DNA from: Nocardioides daedukensis
Lineage (GTDB): Bacteria > Actinomycetota > Actinomycetes > Propionibacteriales > Nocardioidaceae
Reading direction: 5' to 3'
DNA length: 64,000 nucleotides
NCBI RefSeq assembly: GCF_013408415.1
Contig: NZ_JACCAA010000001.1
Location: 1,674,001 to 1,738,000, forward strand
Shown: one piece after another, positions 52,854 through 59,342 of the stretch
How the letters are laid out: each line of letters starts with the position of its first letter
How positions within the stretch are numbered: the stretch's first letter is position 1
Notes under the pieces: generated by a model
The model's database searches: none
What the model was told of the DNA's origin: nothing
Seen by the model: the letters and a program-made list of their open reading frames with translations, nothing else
Position numbers and translations under genes: made by a program

Positions 52854-53619
52854 GTCGCACCGCAGCCTTCGGCACCAGGTCGAGCTCGGCCGCCTCGGCC
52901 AGGTCCGGGGCGTGGCCGCCGAGGTGCGCGGGGTGCCACGGGGCGTGCTCGCCGGGCGCGGGCCGATGGTGCGGCAGCTGCTGCAGTCCCTCCAGCATGC
53001 CGGTGAGGGTGTGGCCGAGTTGCTGCGTCGCGGCAGTCAGGTCGCCGCCGGGTACGACGTACTGCGGGAGGCCGAAGGCGACGTCGACCCGCCGCCCGCG
53101 GGTCCAGTCCGGGCCCGGCTCCTTGCCGTCGGGGCCGGGCCGACCGACCGAATAGATCCGTTGGGGTCCCCACAGCGCCACCGGGACGATCGGCGCCCCG
53201 GTCTCGCGCGCCAACGAGGCGACGCCTCGCATCAGCGGGCGGATCGTGTAGGAGTATGAGATGCCGGCCTCGGGGAAGGCACAGACCCACTCCCGGGCCC
53301 CCAGCAGGCTGCGGGCCCGCAGATAGGCGCCGGCCGGAGCCGTCCGGTCCACCGGGATGTGGCCCATGTGGTCCATCGCCCGGGCCAGCAGCCGCCGGTG
53401 CCAGACGTCGTGGCGGCACATGAAACGGATGTGCGGCTGAATGGTGAAAGCGGCCTTCTGGACGAAGACGAAGTCCGGGTAGGAGACGTGGTTGGAGGCC
53501 AGCAGCACAGGCCCTCGGACCGGAAGATTCTCGGCCCCGTGCACCTCGACGCGGACGTCGAGCGCCCTGAGCAGAGCCCGCCCGAGGAGGTTGACCGCGT
53601 TGTGTACCCGGTCAGCCAT
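52828..53619 (-). CDS. 1-acyl-glycerol-3-phosphate acyltransferase family (PlsC-like)
   Basis: 263 residues. HX4D motif NHVSYPD (about 43-49), FPEAG in place of the usual FPEGT, and IVPVALWGPQR. It should transfer an acyl group to a lysophospholipid-like acceptor at the membrane. A proline/histidine-rich C-terminus of about 50 residues is not part of the fold. Confidence 0.9.
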   Translation of the reverse strand: MADRVHNAVNLLGRALLRALDVRVEVHGAENLPVRGPVLLASNHVSYPDFVFVQKAAFTIQPHIRFMCRHDVWHRRLLARAMDHMGHIPVDRTAPAGAYLRARSLLGAREWVCAFPEAGISYSYTIRPLMRGVASLARETGAPIVPVALWGPQRIYSVGRPGPDGKEPGPDWTRGRRVDVAFGLPQYVVPGGDLTAATQQLGHTLTGMLEGLQQLPHHRPAPGEHAPWHPAHLGGHAPDLAEAAELDLVPKAAVRPTWGPRPR

Positions 53620-53692
53620 GGCCGAACTTTGTCACAATGCGTGTGCTGGATAGTAGATTCCTCCGAAAGTTCACCTCGGGAATGGTCTTCGC

Positions 53693-54190
53693 ATGCAACA
53701 GTTCAACTCGCTTCGCGTCCTGGCTCTTGCCGTGCTGCCCATGCCGCTCCTCCTCGGACTGGCCCTGTGGTTCGTTCTCCAGGGCGTTGACGGCAGCACG
53801 ATGGCCCACGTCCCGTCGATCCTGCTCGTCGTAGGCGTTGCCGTGGCGGCCCTCGCGCTGATCCTCGCGATCGGCTATCGCGGCGCCCCCTTCCGGCAGG
53901 GCGTCCCCCCTCACGTCGCCGTCGAGCGAGGCGCCCGCGTCTTCCAGTCCACCGCCTTCATGCGGATGGCCCTGAGCGAGCTGCCGATGCTGGTCGGTCT
54001 GGCGCTCGCCTTCGTCGCCGGCGAGGGCGGCCTGATCACCTACGCCGTCGGCGCAGCCGCCACCCTCCTCCTGCTGCTCCTGCACTTCCTCCCCAACGCC
54101 ACCCAGGTCCGCAAGGTCCAGGAGTCCCTGGAGCGCCAAGGCGCCCGCGTCCCGCTCCTCGACGCCTTCCACGGCCAGCCCGTCGCCTGA
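53693..54190 (+). CDS. Four-helix membrane protein
   Basis: 165 residues with helices at about 8-30, 40-62, 91-110 and 113-132, then a basic/acidic tail (NATQVRKVQESLERQGARV). The pattern (two helix pairs with a polar loop ERGARVFQSTAFMRMALSEL) recurs in actinobacterial proteins of unknown function, as far as I recall. Confidence 0.7.
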   Translation: MQQFNSLRVLALAVLPMPLLLGLALWFVLQGVDGSTMAHVPSILLVVGVAVAALALILAIGYRGAPFRQGVPPHVAVERGARVFQSTAFMRMALSELPMLVGLALAFVAGEGGLITYAVGAAATLLLLLLHFLPNATQVRKVQESLERQGARVPLLDAFHGQPVA

Positions 54191-54207
54191 CCGCCCCGGC
54201 CCGGTCG

Positions 54208-54281
54208 AAGTCACCGGGTACCGGGTGACTCCGGCGCTTCCCGGGCGAGATCTTGCCCGGGAAGCGCCAGACTTGCCCGGG
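54208..54281. repeat. 74-bp inverted repeat, left copy
   Basis: Nearly exact reverse complement of 55371-55444. It contains a hairpin GCGCTTCCCGGGC...GCCCGGGAAGCGC (13-bp stem) and a second palindromic part around GGGTACC. It lies right after the stop of the four-helix membrane protein, so it may also act as a terminator. Confidence 0.85.
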
Positions 54282-54407
54282 AAGTTACCCGCGCGGCACG
54301 TCGTACTCTGACCGCATTCTGTCCACAGGCTGACCGCGACCCCGACTTCTCCACAGGTCGCATGCCGGTCCCAGCGGCCGCTCCAGTTGCAGGCGAACCT
54401 TGCCGCC

Positions 54408-55361
54408 ATGACCACCGATCTGCTGAGAAGACGCTGCATCAGCCAGGGCTACATCCTTCGCCGCGAGGCGGTGGCCATGGGCTACGACGACAAGTCCCTG
54501 ACCCGGCTGGTGCGCGCGAAGCAGCTCGTCCGGGTGCGCTACGGCGCCTACACCATCGCCGAACTGTGGCCTGACTCCGTGTCCGACAGGCATCAGATCA
54601 GGGCGCGGGCCGTCCTGGGCACCGCGAAGCCCGGAACGGTCCTGTCCCACACGTCGGCGGCGCTCGAGCATGGCGTCTCGACATGGGACGTGCCGTTGTC
54701 CGAGATCCACACCACCCGACCCGATGGCCACGCCGGTCGTCGACTTTCCGGAGTGCACCAGCACCAGGGCATCCTGCTGCCCACCGACACTGTCGTGGTC
54801 AACGACGTGCCGGTGACTGCACCGGTGCGCACCGCTCTGGACTTGATCACGATTCTGGACGTGGAGCATGCTCTGGTCGCGATCAACTCGATGCTGCACG
54901 CGGAGTTGATGACCAAGGACGCGCTGCGTGTTCGTGTCGAGACTGCTGACCAATGGCCGCACACCCTGCACGGTCGCGTCGTGGTCGGCTTGAGCGACCC
55001 CCGTCTCGAGTCGGTCGGTGAGTCGCGCACCTTCTATCTGTGTTGGTCGAACGGCATCCCGCTCCCGACGCCCCAGCACCCGATCTTCGACAACGGCAGA
55101 CTGATTGCACGCCTCGACTTCGCATGGCCCGAGCACAAGGTGTTCCTCGAATTCGACGGACGGGTCAAGTACGTGAAGTTCGTCCCTGATGGCGGGGACA
55201 TCACGGACGTGGTCCTGGCTGAGAAGCGACGCGAGGAACGCATCTGCGAACTGACCGGGTGGCGTTGCATCCGGATCACGTGGGCGGATCTGGCCCAGCC
55301 CGGCCGGACGGCACAACGGATCCGTCAGCTCCTCGAGAACCGGCCACAGAGCGCCGCCTGA
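54408..55361 (+). CDS. AbiEi-like / DUF559-type protein inside an inverted-repeat-bounded unit
   Basis: 317 residues from ATG 54408 (a TTG at 54387 is less likely). The N-terminal winged helix LRREAVAMGYDDKSLTRLVR is as in AbiEi antitoxins. The middle section (LSHTSAALEHGVSTWD) is typical of the group. The C-terminal region has the Vsr/DUF559-like nuclease pattern: IARLDFAWPEHKVFLEFDGR, then KY, and EKRREERICELTGWRCIRIT. The D...E-x-D residues could form a PD-(D/E)XK site. Actinobacteria often carry several such genes. No toxin partner (AbiEii) is adjacent. Confidence 0.75.
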   Translation: MTTDLLRRRCISQGYILRREAVAMGYDDKSLTRLVRAKQLVRVRYGAYTIAELWPDSVSDRHQIRARAVLGTAKPGTVLSHTSAALEHGVSTWDVPLSEIHTTRPDGHAGRRLSGVHQHQGILLPTDTVVVNDVPVTAPVRTALDLITILDVEHALVAINSMLHAELMTKDALRVRVETADQWPHTLHGRVVVGLSDPRLESVGESRTFYLCWSNGIPLPTPQHPIFDNGRLIARLDFAWPEHKVFLEFDGRVKYVKFVPDGGDITDVVLAEKRREERICELTGWRCIRITWADLAQPGRTAQRIRQLLENRPQSAA

Positions 55362-55370
55362 GCCCTACTC

Positions 55371-55444
55371 CCCGGGCAAGTCTGGTGCTTCCCGGGCGAG
55401 ATCTTGCCCGGGAAGCACCGGAGTCACCCGGTACCCGGTGACTT
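55371..55444. repeat. 74-bp inverted repeat, right copy
   Basis: Mate of 54208-54281 in opposite orientation; the arms differ at only a few positions (GTGCTTCCC versus GCGCTTCCC among them). Together they bracket a 1237-bp segment with a single gene. No target duplication is visible next to the outer ends. It also lies before the rpoC stop on the other strand. Confidence 0.85.
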
Positions 55445-55517
55445 TGGCGGGGCGGGCCCCGGACGCGCGAACGCCCCCGACCGGAACCCGGTCGGGGGCG
55501 CTCATGCGATCAAGCGA

Positions 55518-58500
55518 TCAGTTCTGGTACGTCCCGAAGTCGAAGTCGTCCAGCGCGACGGCCTGGCCGCCGGTGGCTCCGAACTCGTAGTCGTAGGAGT
55601 CGTAACCGGACACGGAGTATGCCGCGGCGCGGGCCTCCTCGGTCGGCTCCACCCGGATGTTGCGGTACCGCTCGAGACCGGTACCTGCCGGGATCAGCTT
55701 TCCGATGATCACGTTCTCCTTCAGGCCGCGCAGCGAGTCGCTTCGGCCGTTGATCGCGGCGTCGGTGAGCACTCGGGTGGTCTCCTGGAAGGAGGCCGCC
55801 GAGAGCCACGACTCCGTGGCCAGCGATGCCTTGGTGATACCCATCAGCTCCGGACGTCCCGATGCCGGCTTGCCACCCTCGGAGAGAACGCGACGGTTCT
55901 CCTCCTCGAAGCGGACCCGGTCGACCAGGTCGGACGGGAGCAGGTTGGTGTCACCGGACTCCAGCACCGTGATCCGGCGCAGCATCTGCCGCACGATGAT
56001 CTCGATGTGCTTGTCGTGGATCGACACGCCCTGGCTGCGGTAGACCTCCTGGACCTCGTCCACGAGGTGCTGCTGCGCACGACGGACACCGAGGATGCGG
56101 AGGACCTCCTTGGGGTCCTCGGTTCCCTGGGTGAACCGGTCGCCGACCTCGACGTGGTCGCCATCGGAGACCAGCAGTCGCGAACGACGGCTGACGGGGT
56201 ATTCCACGATCTCGGAACCGTCGTCGGGGGTGACGACGATCTTGCGGGCCTTGTCGCCATCCTCGATCTCGATCCGACCGGCAACCTCCGAGATCGGCGC
56301 AACCCCCTTCGGCGTACGGGCCTCGAAGAGCTCCACGACGCGGGGCAGACCCTGCGTGATGTCGTCAGCCGAAGCCACACCACCGGTGTGGAAGGTACGC
56401 ATCGTCAGCTGCGTGCCGGGCTCACCGATGGACTGCGCGGCGATGATGCCGACCGCCTCACCGATGTCGACCAGCAGGCCGGTGGCCAGCGAGCGGCCGT
56501 AGCACTTCGCGCAGGTACCGGTGCGAGCGTCGCAGGTCAGCACGGAGCGGACCTTGACCTCCACGATGCCGGACTCGATCAGCTCGGCGATCTTGACGTC
56601 ACCCAGGTCCTCACCGGCGCGGGCGAGGATCTCGCCCGACTCCGGGTGCTCCACGTCGGAAGCAGCGGTCCGGGCGTACGCCGCGGTCTCGGCGTTCTCG
56701 TGCTTGATCACCGAACCGTCGGCGAGCTTCTCACCGATCACCTTCGGCAGACCACGCTCGGTGCCACAGTCGTCCTCACGGATGATGACGTCCTGCGACA
56801 CGTCGACCAGACGACGGGTCAGGTAACCCGAGTCTGCGGTCCGCAGCGCGGTGTCCGCGAGACCCTTGCGGGCACCGTGGGTGGCGATGAAGTACTCGAG
56901 AACGGTGAGGCCCTCGCGGAAGTTCGACTTGATCGGGCGCGGGATGATCTCGCCCTTCGGGTTTGCCACCAGACCACGCATGGCCGCAACCTGGCGGATC
57001 TGGTTCATGTTTCCCGAGGCACCCGAGTCGACCATCATGTAGATCGGGTTGGCCTTGTCGAAGTTCTTCTCCATGGCCTTACCGATGACGGCAGCAGCCT
57101 GGGTCCAGATCTCGATGAGCTCCTGACGACGCTCCTCGTCGGTGACCAGACCACGCTCGAACTGCACCTGGACCTTGGCGGCCTGTGCCTCGTAGCCGGC
57201 CAGGATCTCGGCCTTGTCGCCCGGCGTGGTGACGTCGTCGATCGAGACCGTGACACCGGAACGGGTGGCCCAGTGGAAGCCAGCGTCCTTGAGCGCGTCG
57301 AGCGAGGCAGCAACCTCGACCTTGGTGTAGCGCTCAGCCAGGTCGTTCACGATCGCACCGAGCTGCTTCTTGCCGACCTCGTAGTTCACGAAGGGGTAGT
57401 TGGCAGGCAGGGCGTCGTTGAAGATCGACCGGCCCAGCGAGGTCTGGACGGACTCGCCGTCGACACGCAGCTGGATCGGCGTCTGCAGGCTGATCTCGTG
57501 GCGGTCGAACGCCATGATCGCCTCGGCCTGACCGGTGAAGGCACGGCCTTCGCCGGGCTGGTTCGGCCGCTCGGTCGTCAGGAAGAACAGGCCGATGATC
57601 ATGTCCTGGGTAGGCATGGTCACCGGACGGCCGTCCGACGGCTTGAGGATGTTGTTCGTCGACAGCATCAGGATCCGGGCCTCGGCCTGCGCCTCCGCGG
57701 AGAGCGGCAGGTGCACGGCCATCTGGTCACCGTCGAAGTCGGCGTTGAAGGCCGAGCAGACGAGCGGGTGGATCTGGATGGCCTTGCCCTCGATCAGCTG
57801 GGGCTCGAACGCCTGGATGCCGAGACGGTGCAGCGTGGGTGCACGGTTGAGCAGCACCGGGTGCTCGGTGATGACCTCTTCGAGGACGTCCCACACGACC
57901 GGGCGTGCGCGCTCGACCATCCGCTTGGCGGACTTGATGTTCTGCGCGTGCGACAGGTCCACGAGGCGCTTCATCACGAACGGCTTGAAGAGCTCCAGGG
58001 CCATCTGCTTGGGCAGACCACACTGGTGCAGCTTCAGCTGCGGGCCCGAGACGATGACCGAACGACCGGAGTAGTCGACGCGCTTTCCGAGCAGGTTCTG
58101 ACGGAAACGACCCTGCTTGCCCTTGAGCATGTCGGAGAGCGACTTGAGCGGGCGGTTGCCCGGACCGGTCACCGGACGACCACGACGGCCGTTGTCGAAC
58201 AGCGAGTCGACGGCCTCCTGGAGCATCCGCTTTTCGTTGTTGACGATGATCTCGGGGGCACCGAGGTCAAGCAGGCGCTTGAGTCGGTTGTTCCGGTTGA
58301 TCACGCGACGGTAGAGGTCGTTGAGGTCCGAGGTGGCGAAGCGGCCACCGTCGAGCTGGACCATCGGACGCAGGTCCGGCGGGATGACCGGGACGGCGTC
58401 GAGGACCATGCCGATCGGCTGGTTGCCGGTCTTGCGGAACGCGTCGACGACCTTGAGCCGCTTGAGTGCGCGGACCTTCTTCTGACCCTTGCCGGTGGCA

Positions 58501-59342
58501 ATGGTCTCGCGAAGGTTCTCGACCTCCTGGGCGATGTCGAAGTCCTGGAGGCGCTTCTGGATCGCCGTGGCGCCCATGTGGCCCTCGAAGTACTTGCCGA
58601 ACCAGGTCTTCATCTCGCGGTAGAGCAGCTCGTCGCCCATCAGGTCCTGGACCTTCAGGCTCTTGAACGTGCTCCACACCTCGTCGAGGCGGTCGATCTC
58701 GCGCTGGGCACGGTCGCGCAGCTGCTTCATCTCGCGCTCGGCACCGTCGCGCACCTTGCGGCGGGCGTCGGCCTTGGCGCCCTCGGCCTCGAGGGTCTCG
58801 AGGTCGTCGGCCAGCTTCTTGGTGCGGTCCTCGAGCGAGGTGTCGCGGCGGGTCTCGAGACGCTTGCGCTCGAGGTCGATCTTGCCCTCGAGCGAGGACA
58901 GGTCGCGGTGACGCGCGTCCTCGTCGACGGAGGTGATCATGTAGGCCGCGAAGTAGATGACCTTCTCGAGGTCCTTCGGGGCCAGGTCGAGCAGGTAGCC
59001 CAAGCGCGACGGAACGCCCTTGAAGTACCAGATGTGGGTCACGGGAGCGGCGAGCTCGATGTGGCCCATCCGCTCACGACGCACCTTGGAACGGGTGACC
59101 TCGACGCCACACCGCTCGCAGATGATGCCCTTGAAGCGGACTCGCTTGTACTTGCCGCAGTAGCACTCCCAGTCGCGGGTCGGGCCGAAGATCTTCTCGC
59201 AGAAGAGTCCGTCGCGTTCCGGCTTGAGGGTGCGGTAGTTGATGGTTTCCGGCTTCTTGACCTCACCGTGGCTCCATCCGCGGATCTCGTCCGCGGTGGC
59301 CAGGCCGATCTTGAGCTGGTCGAAGAAGTTCACGTCGAGCAC
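55518..59342 (-). CDS. rpoC: RNA polymerase subunit beta'
   Basis: 1274 residues, GTG start. Zinc-ribbon cysteines C60, C62, C75, C78 ([19 protein letters not shown]), the catalytic [16 protein letters not shown] loop, and C-terminal [19 protein letters not shown] with the second zinc site [11 protein letters not shown]. Full length for actinobacteria. It follows rpoB after 111 bp containing a strong hairpin. Confidence 0.99.

Follow-up and report, generated by a model that had tools for sequence, protein, structure and literature searches.

An AbiEi-like gene with a predicted Vsr-like nuclease domain lies between inverted copies of a dispersed palindromic repeat in Nocardioides daedukensis

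Introduction

A gene of Nocardioides daedukensis lies between two nearly identical repeats in opposite orientation. The locus raises the question of whether these repeats belong to the gene or surround it by chance, and whether gene and repeats together form a mobile unit. It was found in a window of 64,000 nt (the whole stretch of DNA analysed), which spans positions 1674001-1738000 of a 3.81 Mb genome assembled as one contig. A first-pass annotation had described an AbiEi/DUF559-like gene between 74-bp inverted repeats containing hairpins, and had read this layout as a small mobile or repeat-bounded unit.

Palindromic repeats dispersed through the genome are widespread among bacteria. The dedicated enzymes linked to them in PMC3733652 are tyrosine transposases, and CGTC repeats are described there as having no such enzyme. 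RAYT genes are described in parts of PMC3116915 and PMC3733652 as distinctive, single-copy genes beside their own repeat type, with many dispersed intergenic palindromes that often lie at gene 3' ends. TIRtrons, in the part of PMC3733652 given to them, consist of a TIRYT gene between long inverted repeats, some of which are double-palindromic and form moderate families.

Results

The gene and its arms

The features of the locus are as follows (window coordinates).

54196..54285, + strand: upstream arm, whole repeat, ordered from outer palindrome to half-site on the gene side; 90 nt, matching the reverse complement of 55367-55456 at 90% identity
54209..54230: P1, the outer palindrome of the upstream arm, centred on 54219/54220
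54236..54265: P2, the central palindrome of the upstream arm, centred on 54250/54251 at a distance of 31 nt from the centre of P1
54270..54285, + strand: P2h, a half-copy in the upstream arm that repeats the right side of P2 20 nt further on
54408..55361, + strand: gene of 317 aa; N-terminal half resembling AbiEi (about residues 1-197), followed by a predicted Vsr/I-Bth0305I-like nuclease domain (about residues 202-314)
55367..55456, - strand: downstream arm, the upstream arm repeated in inverted orientation, separated from the stop codon by 5 nt
55387..55416: P2 of the downstream arm (central palindrome)
55422..55443: P1 of the downstream arm (outer palindrome)

The two arms are in place and nearly identical, with differences at 5 of the 78 positions between 54208-54285 and 55367-55444. 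The inverted match extends to 90 nt at 90% identity, and the annotated length of 74 bp is thus replaced by a measured extent of 78-90 nt. Hairpins had been noted in each copy, and palindromes P1 and P2 were found in both. The bracketed reading frame is intact (ATG at 54408, stop at 55361, 317 aa). Its neighbours are a 165-aa ORF upstream (53693-54190, + strand), for which a Pfam scan gave no significant match, and rpoC downstream (55518-59342, - strand), which is convergent with it. No AbiEii (DUF1814) toxin gene was detected by Pfam among the neighbours. A separate G+C-rich hairpin without a T run, perhaps the rpoC terminator, lies at 55464-55508, directly past the end of rpoC.

Bracketing was scored by blastn between both 500-nt flanks of each locus, counting matches of at least 40 bits. 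The window's own flank pair scored 123 bits. Since 40 bits was reached by 0/113 and 0/125 control flank pairs at unrelated loci (0/238), a chance origin of the bracketing is excluded.

The encoded protein

The window protein scored 24.6 bits against Pfam AbiEi_4 (E 2.7e-5), marginally below the cut-off of 25 bits, and was matched at E ≤ 1 by nine PADLOC AbiEi models, the strongest with an E value of 2.8e-20. DUF559 (PF04480) was unlisted by Pfam for the window protein at E ≤ 1 and for 30 family members at E ≤ 0.1. No Y1/HUH tyrosine transposase appeared in the Pfam scans of the window protein and the 30 members, and a sequence search of solved structures with the protein gave nothing better than E 0.66.

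An AlphaFold2 model of the window protein (mean pLDDT 91.4) was compared with solved structures. Residues 1-197 matched AbiEi 6y8q (Z 10.0, 183 aligned, rmsd 5.8) and residues 1-215 matched Rv2827c (Z 8.1, 199 aligned, rmsd 4.9). Residues 202-314 matched I-Bth0305I (Z 9.1, 97 of 97 residues, rmsd 2.6), and residues 200-313 matched Vsr (Z 7.4, 105 aligned, rmsd 3.1), a score that unrelated folds can also reach. These four are named from 50 matches, the remainder of which include nucleotidyltransferases (Z 5.8-7.8, middle part of the protein). Foldseek gave E values of 4.9e-5 for 6y8q and 6.3e-4 for Rv2827c; those for the nuclease half were weak (0.089 and 0.23). The protein is predicted to be an AbiEi-like DNA-binding half joined to a Vsr/I-Bth0305I-like nuclease. 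The annotated combination of an antitoxin-type domain with a Vsr-like nuclease is supported, for the Vsr-like half by the predicted structure.

Residues E205, D237 and E248 were invariant in 80/80 Nocardioides/Marmoricola proteins and in 29/29 proteins from outside the genus; they are conserved acidic positions of the predicted nuclease half. D250 was kept in 80 of the same 80 and in 26 of the 29. Two pairs of orthologues gave dN/dS values of 0.18 and 0.22, which places the gene under purifying selection; its predicted active site is probably in use.

Bracketing across the gene family

Inverted repeats surrounded the gene at 75/80 Nocardioides/Marmoricola loci (the best 80 of 168 relatives, all belonging to these two genera) and at 27/30 further genus loci, among them the window locus; the two sets may share species and were counted separately. 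Further gene copies were bracketed in 19/20 cases. The closest relative in the set of 80 (L107) had no paired 40-bit repeats in its 500-nt flanks, and its upstream flank carried the 31-nt pattern described below. In a distant subfamily (34-39% identical), all loci (14/14) were bracketed when 700-nt flanks were used. The repeats there are mostly of another type; three loci (L384, L387, L390) resemble the main type, and one match is merely 30 nt long. Loci of this distant subfamily (L377-L390) often have a repeat type of their own, with GAGGTATGCAG or ACCGAGGTAACTCGGT cores, and three of the 14 (L380, L382, L388) have about 580-700 nt between the gene and its downstream arm. For loci beyond the genus, flanks of 900 nt were compared; inverted matches were found at 16/29 of them, and matches on either strand at 21/29.

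Mismatched flank pairs taken from different loci matched on either strand in 1/400 cases, and further controls gave 0/28 and 0/18. Cross pairs of flanks from different family loci within the genus reached 40 bits in 27/300 cases; the highest of these scores (205-577 bits) came from loci with common neighbouring sequence, so cross pairs are no clean control. A plus-strand flank search had been tried as a control and failed because palindromic arms match in both directions (54/80, 19/29, 16/29 and 1/7 at 40 bits); it was swapped for mismatched loci.

Bracketing thus characterises the gene family as a whole, being common in Actinomycetota relatives and far wider than one locus, and the description as a repeat-bounded unit is supported. 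Two loci outside the genus (L194 in G253 and L195 in G165) have arms that are identical at 94.7% over 57 nt and at 100% over 56 nt, which suggests recent homogenisation. Among seven other gene matches in the N. daedukensis genome (E ≤ 1), two are flanked by long inverted repeats and a third by one of 24 nt. The two with long repeats are the paralogues L032 (C1:714773-715435) and L035 (C1:997640-998341); their repeats differ in sequence from the window arms (124 nt at 87% and 89 nt at 78%) and are made of repeated short units.

Arm geometry

From its outer end inward, an arm consists of palindrome P1, palindrome P2 with its centre 31 nt further in, and the half-copy P2h, which faces the gene. 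A spacing of exactly 31 nt between two strong palindromes was present in 138/186 unique arms, against 15-39/186 for other spacings between 25 and 40. The right half of P2 recurred at +20 with an identity of 0.557 (167 arms), compared with 0.21-0.31 at other shifts. When 50 arms were aligned without gaps (alignment A2), 90.2% of cells paired. Arms were picked for A2 by palindromes at the 31-nt spacing; the pairing percentage is therefore partly built in, and the spacing comparison is not. Downstream arms of L163 and L155 (wrong register) and arms scoring below 16 were left out. Two-sided compensatory changes in A2 numbered 305 cells, against 95.7 in shuffled and 62-91 in slid versions. Judged from the arm sequences, the architecture is fixed while the sequences themselves differ.

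The four columns outside P1 held 0.1-0.5 bits each (73 arms), with no conserved tetranucleotide and no GTAG. Rfam gave 8 matches at E ≤ 1, all far below gathering; two weak matches were found in 72,556 plasmid records and none in 50,697 phage records.

Dispersed copies of the repeat

The element occurs at 16 places in the N. daedukensis genome. Eight have the P1-P2-P2h form (two of these being the arms of the gene), another seven are symmetric or close to it, and the last consists of P1 only. Symmetric copies (P1-P2-P1') span about 31 nt on both sides of the centre, and two of the seven are hybrids. Further copies thus exist at 14 places beyond the arms. All 14 are without the gene, and none of the seven other gene matches coincides with an element, the nearest lying about 6 kb off.

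A covariance model was built from arms and used to scan the genus, with 47 candidates scored per genome and both strands counted. Matches were found in 88/98 genus genomes. When 150 candidates were scored, the N. daedukensis genome gave 29 matches, G012 74, G022 61 and G056 81; G027 and G062, in which the family is unmatched at E ≤ 1e-15, gave zero. At least six matches were found in 70/70 genomes that carry a close gene (E ≤ 1e-65) versus 14/28 of those that lack one (Fisher 1.2e-9, uncorrected for kinship); these counts include the gene's own arms, the model was built from the arms of close genes, and related genomes are not independent. Twelve of the 98 genomes had at least six matches and no close gene; in three of these (G020, G045, G087) no member of the family was matched at E ≤ 1e-15. 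None of the best 30 solo loci, from which L235 was dropped as spurious-looking and on a short stretch, had a family gene inside its 1.5-kb stretch. Beyond the genus, one genome from a different genus of the same family (G325) has the arm at about 16 further places, and one from a different family within the phylum (G210) has it at 6. Near G022:C1:1967000 and G012:C1:485200, the solo copy of either species is followed by short GAACGCCGCTGGGA-like units repeated in tandem.

One gene, one repeat family

Two genomes, G012 and G022, carry two such genes each, with different arms. Solo copies were assigned by identity to these arms. G012 has more than 34 solos, of which 34 were tested; 28 belonged to gene A and 6 to gene B. 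The 35 tested in G022 divided into 28 for gene A and 7 for gene B, and neither genome had an ambiguous case. Among the rows listed for the two genomes, identity to the cognate arms was 0.78-0.94, against 0.40-0.45 to the other gene. The model used was trained on both arm types and would miss other repeat families; the upstream arm of G022 gene B was of doubtful register, and the other arm bore that part of the test. In the two genomes examined in detail, each gene's arms were shown to be members of one dispersed repeat family.

Among 16 solos, the mean best identity to an arm of the same genome was 0.778, versus 0.636 when permuted (0/1000 as high). Eight of them were nearest to an arm of the same genome, two were ties and six were nearer to an arm from another genome; same-genome gene copies were incompletely represented in this test. 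An earlier version with nine solos had given 0.699 versus 0.595 (2/2000) and was redone with more gene copies. A quick extraction of the N. daedukensis solos gave an identity of 0.63 to their own arms; symmetric copies were likely misregistered, and BLAST identities were used instead. Protein and arm variation showed weak rank correlations (0.34 for the whole protein, 0/200 permutations as high), in which kinship and co-evolution are unseparated.

We regard a cognate association of gene and repeat family as very nearly certain. The first-pass annotation had set its reading against repeats occurring widely as single terminators unrelated to the gene family. The repeats are indeed common as singles; they are not unrelated to the family, because solos tend to track same-genome arms and fewer than six matches were found in 14/28 genomes without a close gene versus 0/70 with one.

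A proposed two-part system

The reading that we favour, with moderate confidence, is a two-part system of a gene and a structured repeat family carried at both ends of the gene. The AbiEi-like half would bind the palindromes, by analogy with AbiEi antitoxins, which bind inverted repeats. The Vsr-like half would then nick or cut the repeat, either as duplex or as extruded hairpin. Repair of the break would copy single arms into new intergenic places, would keep the copies alike, and may now and then move the whole unit. From the fold and the conserved residues, it is quite probable that the protein recognises the arms; on the same basis, the chances that nuclease activity drives spread or homogenisation appear evenly balanced. 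A Vsr-type fold is not known to join DNA, and spread would consequently need host repair.

Genomic setting and alternative readings

Of 75 elements, 68 lay between genes called with a simple gene caller. Convergent genes flanked 30/68 of these elements and 23/138 of the remaining gaps, an enrichment (p 4e-5), and divergent genes flanked 6/68 and 30/138, a depletion (rough gene calling). This distribution speaks against an alternative that we consider unlikely, in which the arms are regulator sites: the upstream arm would serve an AbiEi-type protein for repressing its own gene, and copies elsewhere would be a regulon or chromosome-organising sites. The fold match to 6y8q favours such a regulator, as does the fixed 31-nt spacing, which would fit dimers on one face of the duplex. 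AbiEi and Rv2827c are also described in PMC7319586 as binding 23-bp inverted repeats in their own promoters and repressing themselves. A second arm behind the gene and the invariant acidic residues of the nuclease half, in addition to the placement of the solos, argue against it.

Gene units had 46 distinct neighbour contexts among 80 (simple gene caller). Occupancy was compared among species at kamA, a gene present in 73 genomes, 30 of which had loci that were examined. The family gene was present on the 3' side of kamA at 10/30 loci, with an lrp-type gene then within the locus in 6. At 10 other kamA loci, that of N. daedukensis included, the kamA-lrp gap was 41-150 nt. The element was seen at 0/20 kamA loci without the gene, by a palindrome scan that missed both arms at 1/10 occupied loci, and no gene/solo allele pair was found at the kamA site. 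Five loci 3' of kamA without the gene (L351, L368, L374, L347, L363) hold another palindromic repeat, TTGGTGACCAA- or TTTGTGACCAAA-like, perhaps a further repeat family. The kamA site shows presence/absence among species, compatible with insertion and no proof of it.

These loci bear on a homing-endonuclease-like selfish gene, in which a symmetric solo P1-P2-P1' would be cut at its centre and repair would insert the gene between two P2 copies. The predicted catalytic domain is nearest to the homing endonuclease I-Bth0305I, and symmetric solos do exist (7/16 places in the N. daedukensis genome). Such a gene is nonetheless improbable, given the 0/20 result and the single-arm solos, which seem to dominate elsewhere as judged by paired matches on both strands.

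Least probable of all is that the repeats act as ordinary terminators, bidirectional or at mRNA ends, and bracket the gene by chance. The strong hairpins, the convergent-gene enrichment and the position of the gene's downstream arm between two convergent genes would speak for this reading. Against it, no terminator-like site with a T run was found in 53600-55700, occurrence follows the gene family and, in two genomes, each gene's repeat type, and the 31/20 geometry is unneeded for termination.

Movement of the copies was followed between G012 and G022, which are about 91% alike. Both flanks were located for 24/34 G012 solos in the part of G022 that was compared, and 21/24 had the spacing expected of a shared copy. 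Most copies therefore seem older than the G012/G022 split. At two sites of solo presence/absence between these genomes, neither junction was base-precise, and on one the shorter side seems to lose a gene end. No target-site duplication was seen by eye in the N. daedukensis copies or in the G012/G022 alignments, the ends of the element being undefined by an empty site. On the rpoC side, 23 genus relatives had no family gene in the locus, with synteny too poor for a junction; in this comparison plsC adjoined rpoC in L049, and L066 gave a weak plsC match. As to the suggested mobility, occupancy differs among species at kamA; neither a precise junction nor a target duplication was found. The empty sites sought in relatives did not appear in precise form at rpoC, at kamA or at the solo sites.

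Discussion

The layout described here, a gene flanked by a repeat that is dispersed in the same genome, is shared with REPIN-RAYT systems (REPtrons). The enzyme is not: RAYTs are tyrosine transposases, whereas the window protein is predicted to be AbiEi-like and Vsr-like. The repeats differ as well, having no GTAG tetranucleotide at the foot and an arm built as P1, 31 nt, P2, 20 nt and half-copy. A gene between long inverted repeats is also the arrangement of TIRtrons, in which the TIRYT enzyme is a tyrosine transposase; no such Pfam model matched the window protein. The modelled N-terminal half resembles AbiEi and Rv2827c of AbiE type IV toxin-antitoxin systems, from which the locus is set apart by having no toxin gene beside it, an extra nuclease domain, and repeats that are both two-sided and dispersed. 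With Vsr and I-Bth0305I nucleases the predicted fold of residues 202-314 is shared, here fused to an AbiEi-like half and tied to a repeat family.

Literature searches, mostly of open-access text and so weak evidence of novelty, found nothing on DUF559/AbiEi/Vsr-type genes paired with palindromic or inverted repeats; nor did searches of the same mostly open-access kind find REPIN/RAYT in Actinobacteria. The layout matches REPIN-RAYT systems and the enzyme does not, and the partnership of this gene with dispersed repeats looks new.

Tentatively, and at slightly less than even confidence, we propose a REPtron-like class in Actinomycetota with an AbiEi-Vsr-like, non-HUH nuclease, whose cutting would spread or homogenise single intergenic repeats, each gene serving its own family. 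If this is true, a second, unrelated enzyme would occupy the same layout, and the partnership of gene and repeat would have had more than one origin. Toxin-less genes of the 'AbiEi antitoxin'-like kind could then be given a role, and the two matched nuclease-repeat specificities inside one cell, in G012 and G022, would be a testable pair.
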